Shown: positions 1-10,176 of the stretch, in pieces
How positions within the stretch are numbered: position 1 is the stretch's first letter
Layout: every line of letters begins with the position of its first letter
Source: Anaeromyxobacter diazotrophicus
GTDB lineage: Bacteria; Myxococcota; Myxococcia; Myxococcales; Anaeromyxobacteraceae
Reading direction: 5' to 3'
DNA: 64,000 nt
Assembly (NCBI RefSeq): GCF_013340205.1
Contig: NZ_BJTG01000001.1
Location: 248,001 to 312,000 of the forward strand
Program-made: the position numbers and the translations under genes
The notes under the pieces: model-generated
The model's input: the letters and a program-made list of their open reading frames with translations, nothing else
What the model was told of the DNA's origin: nothing
Database searches by the model: none

Positions 1-1728
1 GCGCTGGCGGTCTTCGCGTTCCTCCTCGGGCTCCGCTACCTGACCTGGCGGTGGACGTCCTCCTTGAACCCGTCGGCGCTCGCGTTCGCGGTGATGATCG
101 CCGCGGCCGAGTCGCTCGCCTTCCTGGGCGACGTCCTGTTCTTCCTCTCGATCTGGCGCATCACGCCCGTCGCCTCCCCGCCGCCTCCCGCGACGCTCCG
201 CGAGATCGGCGCCTCGCCCGCGACGCCGGATCGCGAGCTCCGCGTCGACGTCTTCATCGCGACGTACGACGAGCCGGTCGAGCTGGTCGCGCTCTCGGTG
301 CGGGACGCGAAGCGCCTGCGCTATCCGCACCCCCTCACGCTCCGGATCCACGTGCTCGACGACGGGCGGCGGGGCGCCATGCGGGACATGGCCAGGGAGG
401 AGGGGGTGGGCTACCTCACCCGCCCCGACAACGCCGGCTACAAGGCGGGAAACCTCCGGAACGGCCTCCAGCACACCGACGGCGACCTCGTCGTCATCTG
501 CGACGCGGACACGCGCCCGCTCCCGGGGCTGCTGGAGGAGACGCTCGGCTACTTTCGCGATCCGCGCGTCGCCTGGGTGCAGACACCGCAGTGGTTCTAC
601 GACGTCAGCCCGGGGACGCCGCTGCCGGAGTGGCTGGCGAGCCGCCTGCGGCTCGGGCCGGCCGGCGGCGCGCTCGGGCGCGGCATCGAGCTCCTGCTCG
701 GGCCGATCACGGTCGGCGGGGACCCCCTCGGCAACGACGCCAGCACGTTCTACGGCGTGATCCAGGCGAGCCGGAACTGGTGCAACGCCGCGTTCTGCTG
801 CGGAGCCGGGAGCATCCACCGCCGCGAGGCCGTGATGGAGTCGGCCCTGAAGCAGTTCGCGCAGGAGGTGACCGCGGCGACGCGTCGCTTCGCCGACCGG
901 GTGCCGGATCGAGCGCTCCGGCGGCCGCTCGCCGCCGCCGTCGCCGGGGCGGCGGCGCGTCGCACGGAGCTCATGCCTTACCGCTTCCACGTCTCCGAGG
1001 ACATCTACACCAGCATCATCGTCCACGCGGATCCCCGGCGGCGCTGGCGCTCGGTTCACCACCCCCGCCCGCTCACGCGCATGCTCTCGCCGCAGGACCT
1101 GCTCGCCTGGACCATCCAGCGGTTCAAGTACGCGAGCGGCACGCTCGACATCGGGTGGCACGACAACCCGCTCAAGCGGCCGGGGCTCACCGCCTGGCAG
1201 AAGCTGATGTACCTCGCCACCATCTACTCCTACCTGTCGCCGCTCTGGCTCGTCCCGCTGCTGCTCGCGCCGGTCGTCTTCTTCTTCGCGGGCGTCACGC
1301 CGGTGGTCGCCTTCGACCCGGAGTTCTTCGCGCAGATCGTGCCCTTCCTGGTCGCCAAGCGGCTCGCCTTCATGGTCGGGACCTGGGGCTTCCGCACCTG
1401 GCGCGCGGAGCAGTACCACCTGGCCTCGGCCTGGCTCCACCTGAAGGCGCTGCTCCACGTCCTCGCGGGCAAGCCCCTCCGGTTCCCGGTGACCCCGAAG
1501 ACGCGCGCCGAGCGCCGCTTCCTGCGCCTCGTCGCGCCGCACGTGCTCCTGGTCGCGGCGATGGCGGCGGGGCTCGTGTACCGCGGCAGCCTCATCGCCT
1601 CCGGGCGCGCGCCGGCCGACACCACCGCGTACCTGGTGAACGTCTTCTGGAGCCTGTACGGCACCCTGTGCCTGCTGCCGATGATCGCGGCGGGACTCGG
1701 GCGCCGTCCCGGAGCCGCGCTCGCATGA
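1..1728 (+). CDS. Cellulose-synthase-like GT2 membrane glycosyltransferase (5' end cut by window)
   Basis: Processive family-2 glycosyltransferase of the inner membrane, expected to polymerise a sugar nucleotide and pass the chain through its own membrane channel. The frame is open from base 1, so the N-terminus lies outside the window; 575 residues are visible. Catalytic landmarks are present: VLDDG, the metal-binding CDADTRP, and an SEDIYTS segment where cellulose synthases have TED. The acceptor-site QxxRW motif is replaced by QRFKY. N-terminal and C-terminal hydrophobic helices flank the soluble domain. The chain ends after the last helices with no PilZ domain, so c-di-GMP control through PilZ is not expected. 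Its stop overlaps the next start (ATGA), indicating translational coupling to the DUF3131 gene. The fold assignment is firm; the polymer made is unknown, and the motif changes argue against assuming cellulose. Confidence 0.85.
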   Translation, partial: ALAVFAFLLGLRYLTWRWTSSLNPSALAFAVMIAAAESLAFLGDVLFFLSIWRITPVASPPPPATLREIGASPATPDRELRVDVFIATYDEPVELVALSVRDAKRLRYPHPLTLRIHVLDDGRRGAMRDMAREEGVGYLTRPDNAGYKAGNLRNGLQHTDGDLVVICDADTRPLPGLLEETLGYFRDPRVAWVQTPQWFYDVSPGTPLPEWLASRLRLGPAGGALGRGIELLLGPITVGGDPLGNDASTFYGVIQASRNWCNAAFCCGAGSIHRREAVMESALKQFAQEVTAATRRFADRVPDRALRRPLAAAVAGAAARRTELMPYRFHVSEDIYTSIIVHADPRRRWRSVHHPRPLTRMLSPQDLLAWTIQRFKYASGTLDIGWHDNPLKRPGLTAWQKLMYLATIYSYLSPLWLVPLLLAPVVFFFAGVTPVVAFDPEFFAQIVPFLVAKRLAFMVGTWGFRTWRAEQYHLASAWLHLKALLHVLAGKPLRFPVTPKTRAERRFLRLVAPHVLLVAAMAAGLVYRGSLIASGRAPADTTAYLVNVFWSLYGTLCLLPMIAAGLGRRPGAALA

Positions 1729-3074
1729 CGTTCCTCCGGGGACTGCTCGCCGCCCGCTCGCACCTCGCCGTCCTCGCCGGCATCGTCGCCGCGCTCGTCA
1801 CGATCCGGCTCGCGACACGCGTCGTCCGCCTCGGCACCCCGGCGCACTACCCGTCGGCCGCGGCCTGGGAGCGACAGTTTCCGCTCCGCCCGCCGCGGCC
1901 GCCGACGAGCGCCGAGCTCGCGCAGGCGCGCGAGGCGTGGAGCTACTTCACGCACAACACCGACGCGCGCACGGGGCTCACCTCGACGGTCGAAGGGTAC
2001 CCCTCCACCACGCTCTGGGACCTGGGCTCCCAGCTCCTGGCGACGCTGGCGGCGGAGGATCTGCGGCTCATCTCGCCCGAGGACTCGGCCCGGCGCCTGA
2101 GCTCGGCGCTCGTCAGCCTCTCGGCGCTCGAGCTCGTGGGAGGGCTCCTCCCGAACAAGGCGTATCACACGCAGACCCTCCAGATGGTGAGCTACGACAA
2201 CGTCCCCGTGAGCGGCGGCGTGGGATGGTCCGCGCTGGACCTCGGCCGCCTGGCGGTGGCGCTCACCGCGGTCGAGCACCGGCACGCCGAGCTCGCGTCG
2301 CGCGTCCGCCGGGCGGTCGCGCGGTGGGATCTGTCCGCCGCGAGCGACGGCACCGCGATGTTCGGCGCCGCGCGCCGCGCCGACGGCACCCTGGAGAAGC
2401 TCCAGGAGGGCCGCTTCGGCTACGAGCAATACGCGGCGAAGGGTCTCCTCGCCTTCGGCGTGCCCGTCGGGCTCGCGCTCGACTACGGCGCCCACGCCGT
2501 CTACGCGGACGTCGACGGTGACACCGTGGCCTCCGACGACCGCGTCCCGGAGGCGCACGGGGGGACCCCGGCCCCGGTGCTCTCCGAGCCCTGGGTGCTG
2601 GACGGCCTCGAGCACGGCCTGGACGCGCTCACCCTCCCGCACGCGCGCGCCGTCCTGGCGGCCCAGCAGCGCAGGTTCGCCGCCACGGGGAAGCTCACCG
2701 CGGTCTCCGAGGACCACCTCGATCGGCCGCCGTGGTTCGCGTACTCGGCGGTGCTCGGCGGCACCGCCCGCTGGACCGCGTTCTCGGCGGACGGGCGACC
2801 GCGGCCCGACGACCTCACGTTCTCCACCAAGGCGGCGATCGGCTGGTGGGCCCTCTTCGGCGGCGACTACCCCGATCGCCTGTACGCCGCCGCGGCGGAG
2901 CTGGTCGACCCCGGGCACGGGTTCTGGGCAGGCCGGTACGACGCGACCGGGGCGGTGAACCGCGTCCGCTCGCTCAACACGAACGCGGTCGTCCTGGAGG
3001 CGCTCGCCTACCGCGCCCGCGGCCCGGCCCTCGGCACCGCGCACGGCTTCGCCGCGGCGGAGGCGAGGCGCTGA
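1725..3074 (+). CDS. DUF3131-type protein, membrane-anchored
   Basis: 449-residue protein starting at an ATG that overlaps the synthase stop codon. One N-terminal hydrophobic helix (about residues 8-30) would anchor it in the inner membrane with the rest in the periplasm. The body carries the pattern I associate with DUF3131, a family often next to polysaccharide synthases: YPSTTLWDLGS near residue 90, LPNKAY, EGRFGYEQY, SEDHLDRPPWF and a C-terminal LNTNAVVLEAL. Conserved acidic residues in WDLGS and SED would suit a glycosidase-like helical toroid fold, but that is inference. It is paralogous to the N-terminal part of the next gene. A role in trimming or handling the nascent polymer is the simplest guess. 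Confidence 0.75.
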   Translation: MTFLRGLLAARSHLAVLAGIVAALVTIRLATRVVRLGTPAHYPSAAAWERQFPLRPPRPPTSAELAQAREAWSYFTHNTDARTGLTSTVEGYPSTTLWDLGSQLLATLAAEDLRLISPEDSARRLSSALVSLSALELVGGLLPNKAYHTQTLQMVSYDNVPVSGGVGWSALDLGRLAVALTAVEHRHAELASRVRRAVARWDLSAASDGTAMFGAARRADGTLEKLQEGRFGYEQYAAKGLLAFGVPVGLALDYGAHAVYADVDGDTVASDDRVPEAHGGTPAPVLSEPWVLDGLEHGLDALTLPHARAVLAAQQRRFAATGKLTAVSEDHLDRPPWFAYSAVLGGTARWTAFSADGRPRPDDLTFSTKAAIGWWALFGGDYPDRLYAAAAELVDPGHGFWAGRYDATGAVNRVRSLNTNAVVLEALAYRARGPALGTAHGFAAAEARR

Positions 3075-5072
3075 GTGACCACCCTGGCCGCGATCGCCCT
3101 GGCGCTCTCGGCGGCGTCCTCCGCGCCGGCGTCCTCCGACGCGGCGCCGCCGCCGCGGTGTGACCTGGCGGCCGGCCCTCCCACCCGCGCCCAGCGCGAC
3201 GCCGCCAGCCTCGCCTGGCGCTACTTCGAGCGGAACTACCAGCCGGGCACGGGCCTCGTGAGCTCGGTCGACGGGTATCCCGCCACCACGATGTGGGACC
3301 TCGGCTCGACGGTGTTCGCGACGCTCTCCGCGCGCGCGCTCGACCTCATCCAGCCGGAGGAGTTCGAGCGCCGGATCTCGACCCTGCTCCGGACGCTCGC
3401 CACGATGCCGCTGTTCGAGGACGAGCTGCCGAACAAGTCGTACGACGCGGCGAGCGGCGCGATGACCGACTACGCGAACCGGCCCGCGCCGCGCGGCCTC
3501 GGCTTCTCGGCGCTGGACGTGGCGCGGCTGGTGTCGTCCCTGCACGCGCTCACGTGCCTCCACCCCGAGCACCTGGCCGAGGTCGAGCGCGTCCTGAGGC
3601 GCTGGCGGACCTGCAACCTGGTCGGCGACGGCCAGCTGTACGGCGCGTCTCGCGACGCCAGCGGAGCGGTCGAGCACCACCAGGAGGGCCGGCTCGGCTA
3701 CGAGCAGTACGGGGCGCGGTCGCTGGCGCTGCTGGGGTTCTCCCTCGACGACATCCAGCGGTTCGACCACCTCGCGGTGGAGGAGCCCGTCGAGGGGATC
3801 CCCATCGCTCGCGACCGCCGCGATCCCGCCAGGTTCGGAGCCCGCACCCCGGTCCTCGTCGAGCCGTGGGCGCTCCACGCCATCGAGTTCGGCCTCGCGG
3901 GCGTGGGCGCGACGCAGCTGCGGCGGATCTACGACGTCCAGCGACGCAGGTGGGAGCTGACCGGCATCCCGACGGCGGTGAGCGAGGACCACGTCGACAC
4001 CGCGCCGTGGTTCGTCTACGACGCGATCGTCGAGGGCGGCGTCGCCTGGCGCACGATCACGCCGGAGGGCCAGGAGGTCCCCGCCCTGCGCAGCCTCTCG
4101 ACGAAGGGGGCCTTCCTCCTCGCGACGCTCTACCCGGACGACCCCTACTCGCGCGTCCTCCTCGACGCCATCGCGGACGCGCGCGACCCCGAGCGCGGGT
4201 GGTACGCGGGCGTCTACGAGCGCGGCGGGCTGAACCGCTCCCTGAACGCGAACACGAACGGCGTCATCCTCGAGGCGGTCCTCTACCAGCTGCTGGGACC
4301 GCTACACGGTACGTGCGCGTCCTGCGGCGTGCGCTGGCCGCCGGGGCTCGCCGCCGGGGACTCGTCGGGGCGATGCGTCTCCGCGGTGGGGCGCGCCGCG
4401 ACGGGGGCTCCGCCGGTCGCCAGCACGGTCGAGGGCGGCGGCCTCGTGACGAAGCACGAGCTGCAGCCCTCGTCGAGCCTCCACCTCGGCGGCTCGCTGT
4501 TCAGCTCTTACCGGCAGGTCGACGGGCCCGCCGCGGGCGCGGTCGCGCAGTGGACGCCGTTCTCGTACTTCTTCCTGCGGCTGGGCGGCGCGGTCACGCC
4601 GCTCTGGCAGGGGGGCGCCACCCGGGCGCTGTGGGGCTTCGGCTACGACGACTGGCACGACAACACCTTCTCGATCCAGGTGAACAACTGGGGGCCGATC
4701 CAGCCGTACGCGTCGGACGTCGGGCCTCGCGGCGCCCAGCTCGACCTCTCGTACAAGGTGCCGCGCCTCTGCGCGGGCCCGGTCTGCCTCTCCACCATGG
4801 CGTTCGCGACCGTCCCGTACGTGGGAGGTCCCTACGTGGGGGCGCGTGGCTACCTCAGGTTCTGGGAGCGGTGGTTCGTCTTCGGCGGCATGGGCTGGGT
4901 GATCCCGAACGTCTTTCCGGGACCTGCCGGCACGCCGCGCTGGCGCCCGATGTTCGGCGTCGGGGAGTGGGATTGGCGACCGGGGTCGATCTTCTTCCAG
5001 TACTACAACTGGGGACCCGACCGCTCGTGGCGCAACGGAGTCTTCAGCGTGGGGATGAACTGGTCCTACTGA
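3075..5072 (+). CDS. DUF3131-type domain fused to C-terminal outer-membrane beta-barrel-like domain
   Basis: 665 residues, GTG start directly after the previous stop. A signal peptide is visible (residues 1-24, Ala-rich hydrophobic core). Residues about 35-415 repeat the DUF3131 pattern of the upstream gene: YPATTMWDLGS, LPNKSY, EGRLGYEQY, SEDHVDTAPWF, LNANTNGVILEA. A Cys-containing linker (about 415-460) follows. The last 200 residues are rich in alternating aromatic and Gly residues (for example QYYNWGPDRS) and end in ...MNWSY with a terminal aromatic residue, as in outer-membrane barrels. The natural reading is a periplasmic domain tethered to an outer-membrane pore or anchor. Length and order set it apart from the upstream paralogue, which has no barrel. 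Confidence 0.7.
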   Translation: MTTLAAIALALSAASSAPASSDAAPPPRCDLAAGPPTRAQRDAASLAWRYFERNYQPGTGLVSSVDGYPATTMWDLGSTVFATLSARALDLIQPEEFERRISTLLRTLATMPLFEDELPNKSYDAASGAMTDYANRPAPRGLGFSALDVARLVSSLHALTCLHPEHLAEVERVLRRWRTCNLVGDGQLYGASRDASGAVEHHQEGRLGYEQYGARSLALLGFSLDDIQRFDHLAVEEPVEGIPIARDRRDPARFGARTPVLVEPWALHAIEFGLAGVGATQLRRIYDVQRRRWELTGIPTAVSEDHVDTAPWFVYDAIVEGGVAWRTITPEGQEVPALRSLSTKGAFLLATLYPDDPYSRVLLDAIADARDPERGWYAGVYERGGLNRSLNANTNGVILEAVLYQLLGPLHGTCASCGVRWPPGLAAGDSSGRCVSAVGRAATGAPPVASTVEGGGLVTKHELQPSSSLHLGGSLFSSYRQVDGPAAGAVAQWTPFSYFFLRLGGAVTPLWQGGATRALWGFGYDDWHDNTFSIQVNNWGPIQPYASDVGPRGAQLDLSYKVPRLCAGPVCLSTMAFATVPYVGGPYVGARGYLRFWERWFVFGGMGWVIPNVFPGPAGTPRWRPMFGVGEWDWRPGSIFFQYYNWGPDRSWRNGVFSVGMNWSY

Positions 5073-5082
5073 GGAGGTGGGC

Positions 5083-6069
5083 GTGGAGGCGAGAGAGCAC
5101 CAGGCCGCCGGGGCGCGCCGGCGAGGCGCGGGCGCGGCGCGGCGCGCGCGGGGCGCGACCGCCGCGCGCGCCGCCGCCCTGCTGGCGCTGATCGCCGGCG
5201 CCTGTGGCTGGGAGCCGCCCGGAAGCTCCAGCCCACCGGCGTCGAGCCTGGGCAGCACACCCGCCGCGCCGCCTGCGAGCGGCCCACCCGCGTCGCCGCC
5301 GCCGTCGAGCGACGGGGGCCCGCCCGCGACGAGCGACGGGCTCCAGCCCACCGGCTATCGGCTCGCGTGGCGCGAGGAGTTCGACGGCTCGGCCCTCGAC
5401 GGCTCGCGCTGGTCGGCGTCGTCCGACCCGCGGCGCGACGCGGTGAACACCCCCGACGCCGCCGCGGTGGCGAACGGCGCCCTCACCCTCACGACGTACA
5501 CCCAGGACGGCGTCCACCGGACGGGGTTCCTCTCGACGGAGGGGAAGTTCGACTTCACCTACGGCTACGTGGAGGCCAGGATCCGCCTCCACGGCGCGCC
5601 GGGCACGTGGTGCGCGTTCTGGCTCAATTCGCCGACCAACGGCACGCCGCTGAACGACCCGTCCGCCGCCGGCACGGAGATCGACCTGCTGGAGAACCGG
5701 GTCGTCGATCAGTACGGGAACGACGTCAGCGACATCGACGCCATGAACGTGAACTGGAACGGCTACGGCGTCGAGCACCAGGACCGCCAGCGGACCGTCC
5801 AGGGCTCACCGTCGCTGCAGGGCAACTGGCACGACTACGGGGTCCTGTGGACGCCCACGGGATATACGTTCTACCTGGACGGCAGTCCGATCTGGACGCC
5901 GGCCGCCGATGTCCCGGTCTCGCGCCGCAGCGAGACGCTGTACCTCACGTGCGAGGTCCACGACCACGACTGGGCCGGGAACATCCCGGCGGGTGGCTAC
6001 GGGACCCGTGACGCGAGCGCGAACCGGATGGAGGTGGACTGGGTGAGGGTGTGGCAGCCCGCGCCCTGA
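5083..6069 (+). CDS. Family 16 glycoside hydrolase, probable lipoprotein
   Basis: 328 residues. GTG at 5083 is chosen because GGAGG lies at 5073-5077, five bases upstream; an in-frame GTG at 5077 lies inside that site. The N-terminus is Arg/Ala-rich, followed by a hydrophobic run ending in LIAGAC, a plausible lipobox, then a Pro/Ser linker (about residues 45-85). The catalytic domain has the GH16 signature EIDLLEN around residues 198-204, with the two Glu as nucleophile and acid/base, preceded by EEFDGSALD and GYVEARIRL. GH16 enzymes cut beta-1,3 or mixed beta-1,3/1,4 glucans and some galactans. Placed directly after the synthase and DUF3131 genes, it probably edits or releases the polymer made here. 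Confidence 0.85.
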   Translation: MEAREHQAAGARRRGAGAARRARGATAARAAALLALIAGACGWEPPGSSSPPASSLGSTPAAPPASGPPASPPPSSDGGPPATSDGLQPTGYRLAWREEFDGSALDGSRWSASSDPRRDAVNTPDAAAVANGALTLTTYTQDGVHRTGFLSTEGKFDFTYGYVEARIRLHGAPGTWCAFWLNSPTNGTPLNDPSAAGTEIDLLENRVVDQYGNDVSDIDAMNVNWNGYGVEHQDRQRTVQGSPSLQGNWHDYGVLWTPTGYTFYLDGSPIWTPAADVPVSRRSETLYLTCEVHDHDWAGNIPAGGYGTRDASANRMEVDWVRVWQPAP

Positions 6070-6082
6070 AGCCGAGCGCTCC

Positions 6083-6703
6083 TCACAGCTCCAGGCCCAG
6101 GCGCCCGGCGACCCCGAACGTCGGGCCCCTGCCCGCGCGGTAGATGGTGGCGCCGACCGCGGGCGCGGGCGCCGGCACCGCGACCTCCTCCGCCGAGAGG
6201 TTCCACCGCGAGAAGCCCCAGACCCCGAGGACCCACCGCACCGAGCCGGCGAGGGGGAGCCGGACGGAGAGGCCCGGCCGGGCGCCCACGAAGCCGACCG
6301 TCATCCGCTCGCCGGAGCCGCCCACCGTGCCGTAGCGGTGGCCGCCCCACTCGGCCAGGAGCTCGAAGCGCAGCACGGAGACGTCGAAGGCGAGCCCGGC
6401 GAGCGGCGCCAGCGTCGAGACCTTCGTCCTCGGCGACGAGAAGGAGGTGTCGAACGAGAGGCCCACCTCGAGGAACGAGGCCTTCGCGATGACCGACGCT
6501 CCCGCGAGGCCGAAGTCGCCGCTGAGGCGGTCCTGCTCGGTGGGGGTCACGGAGGCCGTGCCGCCCGCGAGCTGGAGCGGATCCGTACGCTGGGCGCCGC
6601 CAAAGCCCTCCAGCGTCAGCGAGACCGGCCCGAGCGCGTCCGCCGCCGACGGGGCGGCGAGCAACGCCACGAGGAGCAGCGCAGGGTTCCCGGGGCGGAT
6701 CAC
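6083..6703 (-). CDS. Small outer-membrane beta-barrel-like protein, function unknown
   Basis: 206 residues, GTG start. Residues 1-23 form a clear signal peptide (LLLVALLAAPSAADA). The mature part consists of short alternating hydrophobic/polar strands and ends in GVAGRLGLEL, a pattern typical of eight-stranded outer-membrane barrels. It is convergent with the GH16 gene, with only 13 bases between stops. I recognise no family-specific motif. It could be an accessory pore or sensor for the glucan locus, or simply a resident barrel protein. Confidence 0.65.
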   Translation of the reverse strand: MIRPGNPALLLVALLAAPSAADALGPVSLTLEGFGGAQRTDPLQLAGGTASVTPTEQDRLSGDFGLAGASVIAKASFLEVGLSFDTSFSSPRTKVSTLAPLAGLAFDVSVLRFELLAEWGGHRYGTVGGSGERMTVGFVGARPGLSVRLPLAGSVRWVLGVWGFSRWNLSAEEVAVPAPAPAVGATIYRAGRGPTFGVAGRLGLEL

Positions 6704-6899: not shown

Positions 6900-9803
6900 T
6901 TGGTCCGCGTGGGCGCGGATGCGCGGCGCGGGCGGGGCGGGGCGAGCGGCGACCGGAGGCCGGAGCACGCGCGGAGAGGACTGCGGTGCGCGTCGGCCGC
7001 GGCGCTCGCGCTGCTGTGGGCGGCGCCGGCGCCGGCCCAGCCGAGCGCCTGTCCGGGCCCTACCCTCACCACCAGTGCTCCACCCCCGTCGGCGCGGCCT
7101 TGGATGGACGCCTCGCTCGCTCCGGACGCGCGGGCGGACCTCCTCCTCTCGGCGATGACGCTGGAGGAGAAGGTCGACCTGGCGACCGGGGAGTCGTGTC
7201 TCCTGTACGGCTTCTACAACGCCCCCATCGCACGGCTCGCCATCCCCGCCCTGACGATGACCGACGGCCCGGCCGGCATCCGCATCCCCTACCGGCGCGT
7301 GAACGACGGGCGCGCGACGCTGCTTCCGGCGCCCATCGCGCTCGCGGCGACGTGGGATCCGGACCTCGCCGCGGTGCAGGGGGACGTGCTCGGGAGCGAG
7401 GCGTTCTCGACCGGACACAACGTCCTCCTCGGGCCGACGCTCGACCTGGCGCGCCTGCCGCTCGCCGGGCGGAACTTCGAGACCTTCGGCGAGGATCCGC
7501 TGCTGGCGAGCCGGATGGCGGTCGCGGTGATCCAGGGCATCCAGCGACATCCGGTACTCGCCACCGCGAAGCACTACTCGACCTACACGCAGGAGAGGGA
7601 TCGCTTCACGGTCGACGAGCGCGTCGACGAGCGATGGCTGCACGAGCTCTACCTCCGGCCGTTCGAGTCCGCGGTCCGCGACGGGCACGTCGCGGCCGTG
7701 ATGTGCGGCTTCAACCGCGTCAACGGGGTCTTCGCCTGCGAGGACCGCGCCCTGCTCAGGGACGTCCTCGACGGCGAGCTCGGCTTCGACGGGTACGTCA
7801 TGAGCGACTGGGGCGGCACCCACACGACCCTCGGCGCGGCCGCGGCCGGGCTCGACCAGGAGCTCGCGTTCGGCAAGTACTTCGGGTGGGCGCTGTTCGA
7901 CGCCGTGCAGGGCGGCGCGGTGGCGGCGCCGATGGTGGACGCCAAGGCGCGGCGCATCGTGAGGTCGATGCTCGGGCACGGGCTGTTCGATCAGCCCGTC
8001 CAGGAGGGGCCGCTGCCGGACGCCGAGCACGGGCAGCGCTCGCGCGAGATCGGGGAGCAGGGGATCGTGCTCCTCCAGAACGCCGGGGGCCTCCTGCCCC
8101 TCGACGCCTCCGCTGTCCATTCCATCGCCGTCATCGGCGCCGACGCCGCGAACGCGAGCACCGAAGGCGGCGGGGCCGCGCGCGTGGAGCCCACCTACGC
8201 CGTGACCCCGCTCGACGGCGTCCGGGAGCGCGCGGGAGGCGGCGTCCGCGTCGACTACGCTGCCGGCACGGACCCCATCACCGCGGCACACCTCCTCCCC
8301 GGGCTGCCGCCCGTCCCGTCCTCGGTGCTGTCGCCCCCCGGCGCCAGCGCGCATGGGCTCGAGGCGGAGTACTGGTCGAACACGCGCTTCGATGGCGACC
8401 CGGACATCCGGCGCGTGGACGGCCAGGTCGCGGTGTCGCTCGGGTTCTTCAGCTACCAGAGCGTCAACGCCTCGTCGGTGCCGCAGTCGCTCGTCCAGTA
8501 CACGCTGTCCAGGTTCTCCGCGCGCTGGACGGGGACGCTGACCGCGCCCGCCACCGGTCCGTTCCAGTTCTCCCTGACCACCCGGGGACGAGGCTGGCTC
8601 TGGATCGACGGCAGCCTCGTGATCGACGACTCGGTCTCGCACGATCTCGGCTCGAAGACGGCGACGGTCCAGCTCGTCGCAGGTGAACGGCACGCAATCC
8701 GCATCGACTACGCAGCGGACGCGGACGCCATCGGCACCAAGACCGACGTCGGGGGCGACGTGATGCTCGGCTGGGAGGTCCCGGCGGGCACCGTGTTCCC
8801 ATCGGTCCGGGAGGCCGCGCGCCTCGCCGCCGCGGACGACCTCGCGATCGTGGTGGTGCGCGATTACGGCACCGAGGAGCGCGACCGTCCGAGCCTGGCG
8901 CTGCCGGGCGATCAGGACCAGCTCGTGCGCGAGGTGGCCGCGGCGAACCCGCGCACGATCGTGGTCCTCATGACGGGACAGCCGGTGGACATGCCGTGGC
9001 TGGGGAGCGTCGCCGCCGTCGTCGAGGCCTGGTATCCCGGCCAGGAACAGGGCCGCGCCATCGCCCGCGTGCTCTTCGGGGACGTGAACCCTTCGGGCAA
9101 GCTCCCCATCACCTTTCCGCGCACCCTGGCCGACACCCCGGCCGCCTCGCAAGGGGTCGCGTCGGACGCCGTCGGCCCCGTGCTGACCTTCTCGGAAGGT
9201 GGGCTCCTCGGCTACCGCTGGTACGACGCCAGGGGCCTCGGCCCGCTCTTCCCCTTCGGGCACGGGCTCTCGTACACCTCGTTCCGTTACGACGGGGCGG
9301 AGCTGACGTCGCCGGCGTCCCCCGCCGACGCGTGGCGCGTCGGGTTCACGATCACGAACGCAGGCCCGCGCGACGGGACCGAGGTGGCGCAGGTGTACGC
9401 GGAGGCGTGCGGCGGCGACCCGGAGGCGGCCCCGAAGCAGCTCGCCGGCTTCGCGAAGGTCTCACTCCGAGCAGGCGAGTCGAGGCGCGTCTCGGTCGAC
9501 GTCGACCCGCGCTCCAGGTCGTCCTGGAGCGCGACGGCTCACGCCTGGCAGCCGGCATCGTGCACCCCCACGGTGTACGTCGGGAGCTCCTCGCGCGACC
9601 TGCGGCTCACGGCCGGAGCGGCTGCGAGCTCCGGCGGGGCGCCCGGCCAGGCGCCACCCACCGGGACGTCGCCCACCGGGACGTCGCCCGGCGGCGGAGG
9701 CCCCGCCGGTGGATCGCGGGGCGGCTGCGGACAGAGCGGCGACGGCGGGCTCGGCGTGGGGCTCGCGCTCTGGGCCCTCTTCAGCCGCAGGCGGAGGCGC
9801 TGA
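6900..9803 (+). CDS. Family 3 glycoside hydrolase (beta-glucosidase type) with PA14 insert and MYXO-CTERM tail
   Basis: 967 residues if TTG at 6900 is used; the start is uncertain because the signal-peptide core (ASAAALALLWAAPAPAQ) begins only near residue 31. Order: GH3 barrel from about residue 60 with TDGPAGIR and nucleophile Asp in VMSDWGG (about 303); the alpha/beta sandwich, interrupted by a PA14 domain (about 480-630); a C-terminal fibronectin-III-like domain (about 805-885); a PTGTS-repeat and Gly-rich linker; then a tail with GCGQSGDGG, a hydrophobic helix and a run of Arg. That tail matches the myxobacterial MYXO-CTERM sorting type, so the enzyme is probably displayed on the cell surface. 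GH3 enzymes remove terminal beta-glucose, which complements the GH16 endo-enzyme upstream. PA14 inserts in GH3 usually shape oligosaccharide specificity. Confidence 0.9.
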   Translation: MVRVGADARRGRGGASGDRRPEHARRGLRCASAAALALLWAAPAPAQPSACPGPTLTTSAPPPSARPWMDASLAPDARADLLLSAMTLEEKVDLATGESCLLYGFYNAPIARLAIPALTMTDGPAGIRIPYRRVNDGRATLLPAPIALAATWDPDLAAVQGDVLGSEAFSTGHNVLLGPTLDLARLPLAGRNFETFGEDPLLASRMAVAVIQGIQRHPVLATAKHYSTYTQERDRFTVDERVDERWLHELYLRPFESAVRDGHVAAVMCGFNRVNGVFACEDRALLRDVLDGELGFDGYVMSDWGGTHTTLGAAAAGLDQELAFGKYFGWALFDAVQGGAVAAPMVDAKARRIVRSMLGHGLFDQPVQEGPLPDAEHGQRSREIGEQGIVLLQNAGGLLPLDASAVHSIAVIGADAANASTEGGGAARVEPTYAVTPLDGVRERAGGGVRVDYAAGTDPITAAHLLPGLPPVPSSVLSPPGASAHGLEAEYWSNTRFDGDPDIRRVDGQVAVSLGFFSYQSVNASSVPQSLVQYTLSRFSARWTGTLTAPATGPFQFSLTTRGRGWLWIDGSLVIDDSVSHDLGSKTATVQLVAGERHAIRIDYAADADAIGTKTDVGGDVMLGWEVPAGTVFPSVREAARLAAADDLAIVVVRDYGTEERDRPSLALPGDQDQLVREVAAANPRTIVVLMTGQPVDMPWLGSVAAVVEAWYPGQEQGRAIARVLFGDVNPSGKLPITFPRTLADTPAASQGVASDAVGPVLTFSEGGLLGYRWYDARGLGPLFPFGHGLSYTSFRYDGAELTSPASPADAWRVGFTITNAGPRDGTEVAQVYAEACGGDPEAAPKQLAGFAKVSLRAGESRRVSVDVDPRSRSSWSATAHAWQPASCTPTVYVGSSSRDLRLTAGAAASSGGAPGQAPPTGTSPTGTSPGGGGPAGGSRGGCGQSGDGGLGVGLALWALFSRRRRR
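9658..9687 (+). repeat. Two perfect 15-bp direct repeats in the GH3 linker
   Basis: The unit CCACCGGGACGTCGC occurs twice back to back and encodes PTGTS-PTGTS in the linker before the sorting tail. Perfect identity in a flexible linker suggests recent slippage duplication. Confidence 0.8.
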
Positions 9804-9922
9804 AGCAGCGATCGCGCGGCGCGCGCCCCGGCGCCACCGTTCGCCGGGCCTAGCGCCGGCCGACCCTCCCCGGCCGAGCGGAGCACGCGGCGAAGTGACT
9901 AAAGTCATGGGAGGAGGTACGC

Positions 9923-10129
9923 ATGCCCCATCGTTCCTGGAGCCCCGCAGCCAGCCGCGACGCGGCGCCCGAGCAGCGTCCGCCCGCGCCCGCCTCCGTC
10001 CACCCGGACGGGAGCGTCGATCGCGAGCTCTGGGCGCCCAGCGAGGGGCCGTGCCGGCACGAGGTGGGCGGCGCGGGCGGCGAGCCCGAGGGCCGGAGCC
10101 TGCCGATCAGGAAGGTGTGCTGGGATTGA
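9923..10129 (+). CDS. Small protein of unknown function (68 aa)
   Basis: ATG preceded by the strong ribosome-binding site GGGAGGAGGT (9909-9918) with four bases between, which is why I accept this short frame. The product is polar, rich in Pro, Ala, Arg and Glu, with one conserved-looking end, PIRKVCWD, and two Cys. It has no signal peptide or membrane helix. A TAAAGT hexamer, like the -10 of groES and rpoZ, lies at 9900-9905. No function can be assigned. Confidence 0.5.
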   Translation: MPHRSWSPAASRDAAPEQRPPAPASVHPDGSVDRELWAPSEGPCRHEVGGAGGEPEGRSLPIRKVCWD

Positions 10130-10176
10130 GGCGGGCGACCGCGTAGCTCGCGCTGCTCACCGCGAAGGGAGGCCAG

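Follow-up and report, generated by a model that had tools for sequence, protein, structure and literature searches.

We found that a predicted outer-membrane barrel, fused in Anaeromyxobacter diazotrophicus to a DUF3131 domain, is a widespread, unnamed partner of loci that encode a GT2 glycosyltransferase and DUF3131 proteins; this is a stronger result than the fusion itself. The fusion protein is encoded at positions 3075-5072 of the window, the 64,000-nucleotide stretch of DNA analysed here. The two parts are separate neighbour genes elsewhere and fused in the host family, and therefore enzyme and barrel very likely share their site of action and are needed in a fixed proportion. From the fusion and the co-occurrence together, we conclude that the enzyme and the predicted barrel belong to one undescribed synthase-dependent polysaccharide system.

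The fusion gene is a single open frame of 665 aa on the + strand, whose GTG start stands immediately after, and in the same frame as, the TGA of an upstream DUF3131 paralogue. We dismissed read-through of this TGA from the first DUF3131 gene into the second: all four orthologous loci show a four-base start/stop overlap, an ordinary arrangement. Read by eye, the N-terminus of the fusion is a hydrophobic, signal-peptide-type stretch without a basic residue; the orthologues have Arg there, and the protein is likely secreted. The operon runs in the order STAS, cellulose-synthase-like GT2, membrane-anchored DUF3131, fusion and GH16 lipoprotein. Its gene families were checked against Pfam for the window and for locus L026, and the GH16 motifs were checked separately. 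The features are as follows (window positions, except where locus L003 is named):

L003 9519-9896: STAS-domain gene, preceding the GT2 gene (Pfam).
1..1728, + strand: CelA-like processive glycosyltransferase GT2, beginning about 84 bp before the window (L003 9917-11728; Pfam GT2 families, BcsA match).
1725..3074, + strand: inner-membrane-anchored DUF3131 paralogue, 449 aa, overlapping the GT2 stop codon (PF11329, E 1e-118; N-terminal hydrophobic segment).
3075..5072, + strand: DUF3131 and predicted outer-membrane barrel fusion protein, 665 aa (full-length orthologues in L026-L029).
3075..3143, + strand: N-terminus of signal-peptide type, residues about 1-23 (visual reading; N-termini of orthologues).
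3201..4295, + strand: DUF3131 domain, residues 43-407, predicted (alpha/alpha)6 fold, candidate catalytic E304 (SED) and E210 (YEQY) (PF11329, AlphaFold2, Foldseek, hmmsearch).
4296..4469, + strand: linker, residues 408-465, bearing CxxC and a third Cys (unfused DUF3131 orthologues terminate inside this stretch).
4470..5069, + strand: predicted 12-stranded outer-membrane beta-barrel domain, residues 466-665 (AlphaFold2; Foldseek to FapF, OmpG, OmpC and OmpF; family alignment).
4632..4697, + strand: barrel signature copy 1, WGFGYDDWHDNTFSIQVNNWGP, residues 520-541 (conserved alignment columns).
4953..5018, + strand: barrel signature copy 2, FGVGEWDWRPGSIFFQYYNWGP, residues 627-648 (conserved alignment columns).
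5046..5069, + strand: C-terminal beta-signal SVGMNWSY, residues 658-665 (sequence).
5077..6069, + strand: GH16 laminarinase-like lipoprotein, catalytic motif EIDLLE, lipobox AGAC (PF00722, E 1e-16; PDB laminarinase, E 1e-11).

The initial annotation had named the DUF3131 family, and correctly so: residues 43-407 of the fusion match PF11329 with an E-value of 3.3e-128 (428 bits against a cutoff of 20.3, model positions 2-366 of 367). The upstream paralogue, which it placed as inner-membrane-anchored, has its own PF11329 match and an N-terminal hydrophobic anchor, the latter seen by eye. These two are the only DUF3131 proteins in the host genome. The Pfam entry assigns DUF3131 no function, and a search of the open-access literature found no function reported for DUF3131 or for the GT2-DUF3131 locus. 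In a full-length AlphaFold2 model, pLDDT over the DUF3131 domain was mostly over 90 (310 residues at 90 or above). The model is an (alpha/alpha)6 barrel with its closest fold similarity to members of the SGL clan. The best Foldseek matches in the PDB were Bacteroides 'putative glucoamylases', GH144 CpSGL, EeSGL1, GH162 TfSGL and cyclic beta-1,2-glucan synthases, the last through both the cyclization domain and whole structures; the top 19 were all SGL-clan enzymes, cyclic glucan synthases or 'putative glucoamylases'.

Similarity to this clan extends to sequence. Searched with hmmsearch, the DUF3131 profile matched 8wy1 (GH189 TiCGS) over the first 100 residues (E 4.4e-6), and in related genomes the PF11329 model reaches NdvB-like proteins as well. 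Although the SGL-clan glycoside hydrolases (GH144/162/189/192-194) are the best match of the predicted fold, identity to DUF3131 over the whole domain is low (10-14%), and the catalytic residues map in part. The clan has a conserved general acid Glu (E211 in CpSGL, E262 in TfSGL, E1356 in TiCGS). By hhalign, E304 of the fusion (SED, nearly invariantly acidic) pairs with the TiCGS nucleophile E1442 at low per-column confidence, and E210 (YEQY) can be paired by eye with the general acid E1356, where hhalign has a gap. The TiCGS residues E1356, E1400 and E1442 (PMC10834661) correspond by spacing to SEARL, FEYL and SES in a myxobacterial CGS. DUF3131 has a Lys at the position of TiCGS W1109, which lies near subsite -3. 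The proposal that DUF3131 handles glycans is backed by this similarity of predicted fold and sequence to beta-1,2-glucanases and to the cyclization domain of CGS, which would place the domain near the beta-1,2-glucanase clan.

The C-terminal part had been described as about 200 residues of barrel-like sequence ending in an aromatic residue, and this description held up. AlphaFold2, run on residues 440-665 with two distant relatives, predicted 12 strands (8-12 had been expected) with a mean pLDDT of 66 and a pTM of 0.59. Against the PDB, the best Foldseek match of this model was FapF (5o68, E 2.4e-4, TM 0.57), followed by OmpC, OmpF and OmpG, and outer-membrane barrels made up 50 of the 50 matches listed. 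The region contains 15% glycine and 19% aromatic residues, and its signature is a duplicated motif, FGYxDWxPxT...NWGP. Outer-membrane barrels carry a BamA beta-signal, in which the C-terminal residue is aromatic; SVGMNWSY, the final eight residues here, agrees with this signal, and all five fusions end in F or Y. Residues 466-665 had no sequence match in Pfam, NCBIfam or the PDB. A fold search against viral structures returned no match. DUF3131 and the barrel were modelled apart because a joint MSA misaligned barrel rows with DUF3131 rows; in the full-length model, whose alignment contained no barrel relatives there, the barrel region was not resolved.

It is very improbable that the C-terminus is instead a soluble, beta-rich carbohydrate-binding domain. 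Such a domain would be consistent with the hydrophobic alternation of the region, which was not significantly above shuffles (p about 0.1, single-sequence and profile tests), and with a pLDDT of just 66. The fold matches and the beta-signal argue against it, however, as do a Burkholderia relative that touches PF13505 OMP_b-brl (E 0.0016, below cutoff) and an Edwardsiella phage-plasmid relative that adjoins a gene for a Lom outer-membrane protein. We conclude that the C-terminal part, as modelled, is very likely an outer-membrane barrel.

The fusion is not a chance event, because it occurs at full length in four other genomes, from the same family and two other genera, at about 50% identity (49-53%). 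The order STAS-GT2-DUF3131-fusion-GH16 is kept in five genomes, including the host. Two other families of the order encode DUF3131 and barrel as distinct proteins (L015, L016, L053, L055); in L015 the barrel protein (8897-10159) lies behind a DUF3131 frame that ends at 8900. In L015 and L016 the unfused DUF3131 orthologues are 48-50% identical and stop just past the third conserved Cys, in the part equivalent to the linker, and the separate barrel proteins have an extra N-terminal domain of about 200 aa that is absent from the fusion. Covalent joining is restricted to one family among the genomes searched, and the unfused barrel partner is widespread. In a Thiotrichaceae MAG (L070 14294-17206), a 970-aa frame has the barrel at its C-terminus and contains a FimV-core domain as well.

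A barrel profile (alignment A7) was run on 195 genomes of the phylum. The barrel was found in 14 and full DUF3131 in 10, and all 10 DUF3131 genomes had the barrel, compared with 4 of the 185 genomes without DUF3131 (Fisher p about 6e-14, with genome relatedness ignored). In the four barrel-only genomes, same-family genomes among them, a stand-alone barrel lies beside a GH16 gene without GT2 or DUF3131; the barrel is therefore not exclusive to the GT2-DUF3131 pathway. The loci around the stand-alone pairs of L030, L033 and L034 are biosynthetic and include genes for Wzc, Poly_export/SLBB or Wzi (for L034, judged from L033, which it resembles).

Beyond the phylum, profile matches came from DUF3131-bearing genomes of Thiotrichaceae, Granulosicoccaceae, Desulfobacterales and Burkholderia; among DUF3131-bearing genomes it had no match in three Rubellimicrobium genomes and one Sulfurovum MAG. 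In the Rubellimicrobium loci, a third DUF3131 gene, divergent in sequence, lies on the other strand (L020 7311-8573, L024 7295-8557, L025 7130-8335; 28-29% identity). DUF3131 and barrel occur in the same 2 of 65 Burkholderia genomes, about 11 kb apart, and relatives of the Burkholderia barrel are found on 16 plasmids of Pantoea, Salmonella, Chimaeribacter, Vibrio and Rhodobacterales; among the matches listed, nearly all of these plasmids also appear as DUF3131 matches. The regions inspected, from Pantoea, Paracoccus and a further Rhodobacteraceae plasmid, list the barrel as a 'hypothetical protein' close to glycosyltransferase and DUF3131 genes. Across the lineages with a separate barrel gene (two other myxobacterial families, Burkholderia, Pantoea, Salmonella plasmids, Rhodobacterales and Thiotrichaceae), this gene is mostly unannotated and near GT2 and DUF3131. 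Aligned by hhalign, the Burkholderia/Pantoea-type and Myxococcota-type barrels match over 162 columns (E 1.5e-15). Genes that recur in related loci encode SpoIIE phosphatase, STAS, anti-sigma kinase, OpgC, and GH2-like and GH9 proteins; a Klebsiella locus combines cellulose synthase, three DUF3131 proteins and OpgC (PMC12974863). A barrel relative of 35% identity on Edwardsiella plasmid CP002155 (L076 7737-8609) sits beside the Lom gene in a phage-plasmid tail region, and the barrel is thus carried by phages too.

The operon GT2 matches BcsA (E 8e-31) and scores 209 bits against TIGR03030, below the 699-bit equivalog cutoff. Processive GT2 enzymes usually carry the motif QxxRW; at this position all 12 of the GT2 loci matched read QRFKYA(S/G/C)G. 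On both counts, score and motif, the GT2 departs from a BcsA cellulose synthase, and cellulose should therefore not be assumed as the product. The QRFKYA(S/G/C)G sequence is possibly a marker of a distinct synthase clade. Downstream, on the opposite strand (6083-6703), the window encodes a 206-aa outer-membrane-type protein without a Pfam match, a 213-aa relative of which (31% identity, E 1e-20) is found in L031, some 2.4 kb away from the stand-alone barrel/GH16 pair there. Positions 6900-9803 (+) encode a GH3 beta-glucosidase with a PA14 domain; this enzyme may act in the same pathway, because a secreted protein of GH3 size (L026 10342-13206; family by size) also follows the operon in L026.

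The locus resembles BcsA/BcsC (cellulose) and PgaC/PgaA (PNAG) in pairing an inner-membrane GT2 synthase with an outer-membrane barrel that has a periplasmic domain. Unlike BcsC and PgaA, with their TPR domains and 16-stranded barrels, the fusion has a periplasmic part that is a predicted glycosidase-like (alpha/alpha)6 domain without a TPR family match and a barrel of 12 predicted strands for which we found no sequence relation to theirs; it does not fit a PgaA/BcsC-type export porin, and its GT2 reads QRFKY where BcsA has QxxRW. Cyclic glucan synthase similarly couples a glucan synthase to an SGL-clan cyclization domain, but as one large inner-membrane protein, whereas here GT2 and DUF3131 are separate genes and an outer-membrane barrel is added. 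FapF, the best fold match of the barrel, is also a 12-stranded outer-membrane barrel; it shares no sequence similarity, secretes amyloid protein and has a coiled-coil in place of the enzyme domain. The OPX and 18-stranded barrel translocons of myxobacteria are, similarly, outer-membrane barrels dedicated to polysaccharide export, but they are PgaA-like and serve Wzx/Wzy pathways, with no enzyme fusion described there (PMC9603273).

Our results suggest that the locus is probably a synthase-dependent polysaccharide system with a GT2, an anchored and a fused DUF3131 domain, a 12-stranded barrel as tether and probable exit, and trimming by GH16. Judging from its family, the GT2 would make a glucan-type chain and pass it into the periplasm. 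Going by fold and sequence, both of these DUF3131 domains would then act on the chain as enzymes of the beta-1,2-glucanase clan do, by endo-cleavage or transglycosylation. By way of the barrel, the enzyme would stay at the outer membrane's inner face; the barrel would probably also serve as the exit for the finished chain or oligosaccharide, and the GH16 lipoprotein would trim or release the product. Several observations count against this explanation. Confidence in the barrel model, built from three sequences, is moderate (pLDDT 66), and the full-length model left the barrel unresolved; 12 strands are few and may not pass a polymer; some genomes have the barrel/GH16 pair without GT2 or DUF3131, and the Rubellimicrobium and Sulfurovum genomes have DUF3131 without a barrel match; and DUF3131 carries Lys in place of TiCGS W1109. 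PMC9603273 discusses polysaccharide export barrels of 16 or 18 strands, and conduction of polymer by a barrel of 12 is therefore the main question.

The strand number, together with short predicted loops, would also suit a closed-lumen barrel that anchors the DUF3131 enzyme to the outer membrane while the glucan stays periplasmic, like an osmoregulated glucan, or exits otherwise. OpgC is the succinyltransferase of osmoregulated periplasmic glucans; its presence in related loci and the similarity of DUF3131 to beta-1,2-glucan enzymes are consistent with such a role. We consider a pure anchor rather unlikely, however: the window operon is without OpgC, many lineages keep the barrel as a stand-alone protein, with no DUF3131 for it to anchor, and the GH16 lipoprotein, the STAS regulation and the GH2/GH9 neighbours suit an exopolysaccharide better. 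Less likely still is that barrel and GH16 form an uptake or remodelling module, in which GH16 would cut external or surface glucan, the barrel would admit the oligosaccharides, and DUF3131 and the nearby GH3 would degrade them. With 12 strands and about 200 residues, the barrel described here resembles NanC and KdgM, GH3 genes lie close by, and the barrel/GH16 pair is conserved even where GT2 and DUF3131 are missing. Yet the nearest solved fold is FapF and not NanC/KdgM, the linkage to the GT2 synthase is tight, and the stand-alone pairs with Wzc, Poly_export and Wzi neighbours lie in biosynthetic loci.

The initial annotation had seen in the fusion a new way to couple polymer processing to export. 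The association of enzyme and barrel stands, given the neighbouring genes elsewhere, as does the glycan context provided by GT2 and GH16; 'new way' calls for some qualification, since covalent joining was confined to one family among the genomes searched and the barrel is common as an unfused partner. The TPR domains of PgaA and BcsC are precedents for a periplasmic domain joined to an export barrel; we found none for a glycosidase-like domain. The fusion is natural evidence for the association of the barrel with GT2-DUF3131 loci. As a tentative generalization, about which we are evenly divided at best, GT2, DUF3131 and barrel may constitute a widespread, undescribed Gram-negative machine for polysaccharide secretion, which would place a glucan-cutting or glucan-cyclising enzyme at a minimal 12-stranded export pore and of which the fusion would be a covalent snapshot. 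These findings offer a testable function for the DUF3131 loci of Pantoea, Salmonella plasmids, Burkholderia, Rhodobacterales and myxobacteria, and a compact system for the study of polymer processing and exit in a single polypeptide.
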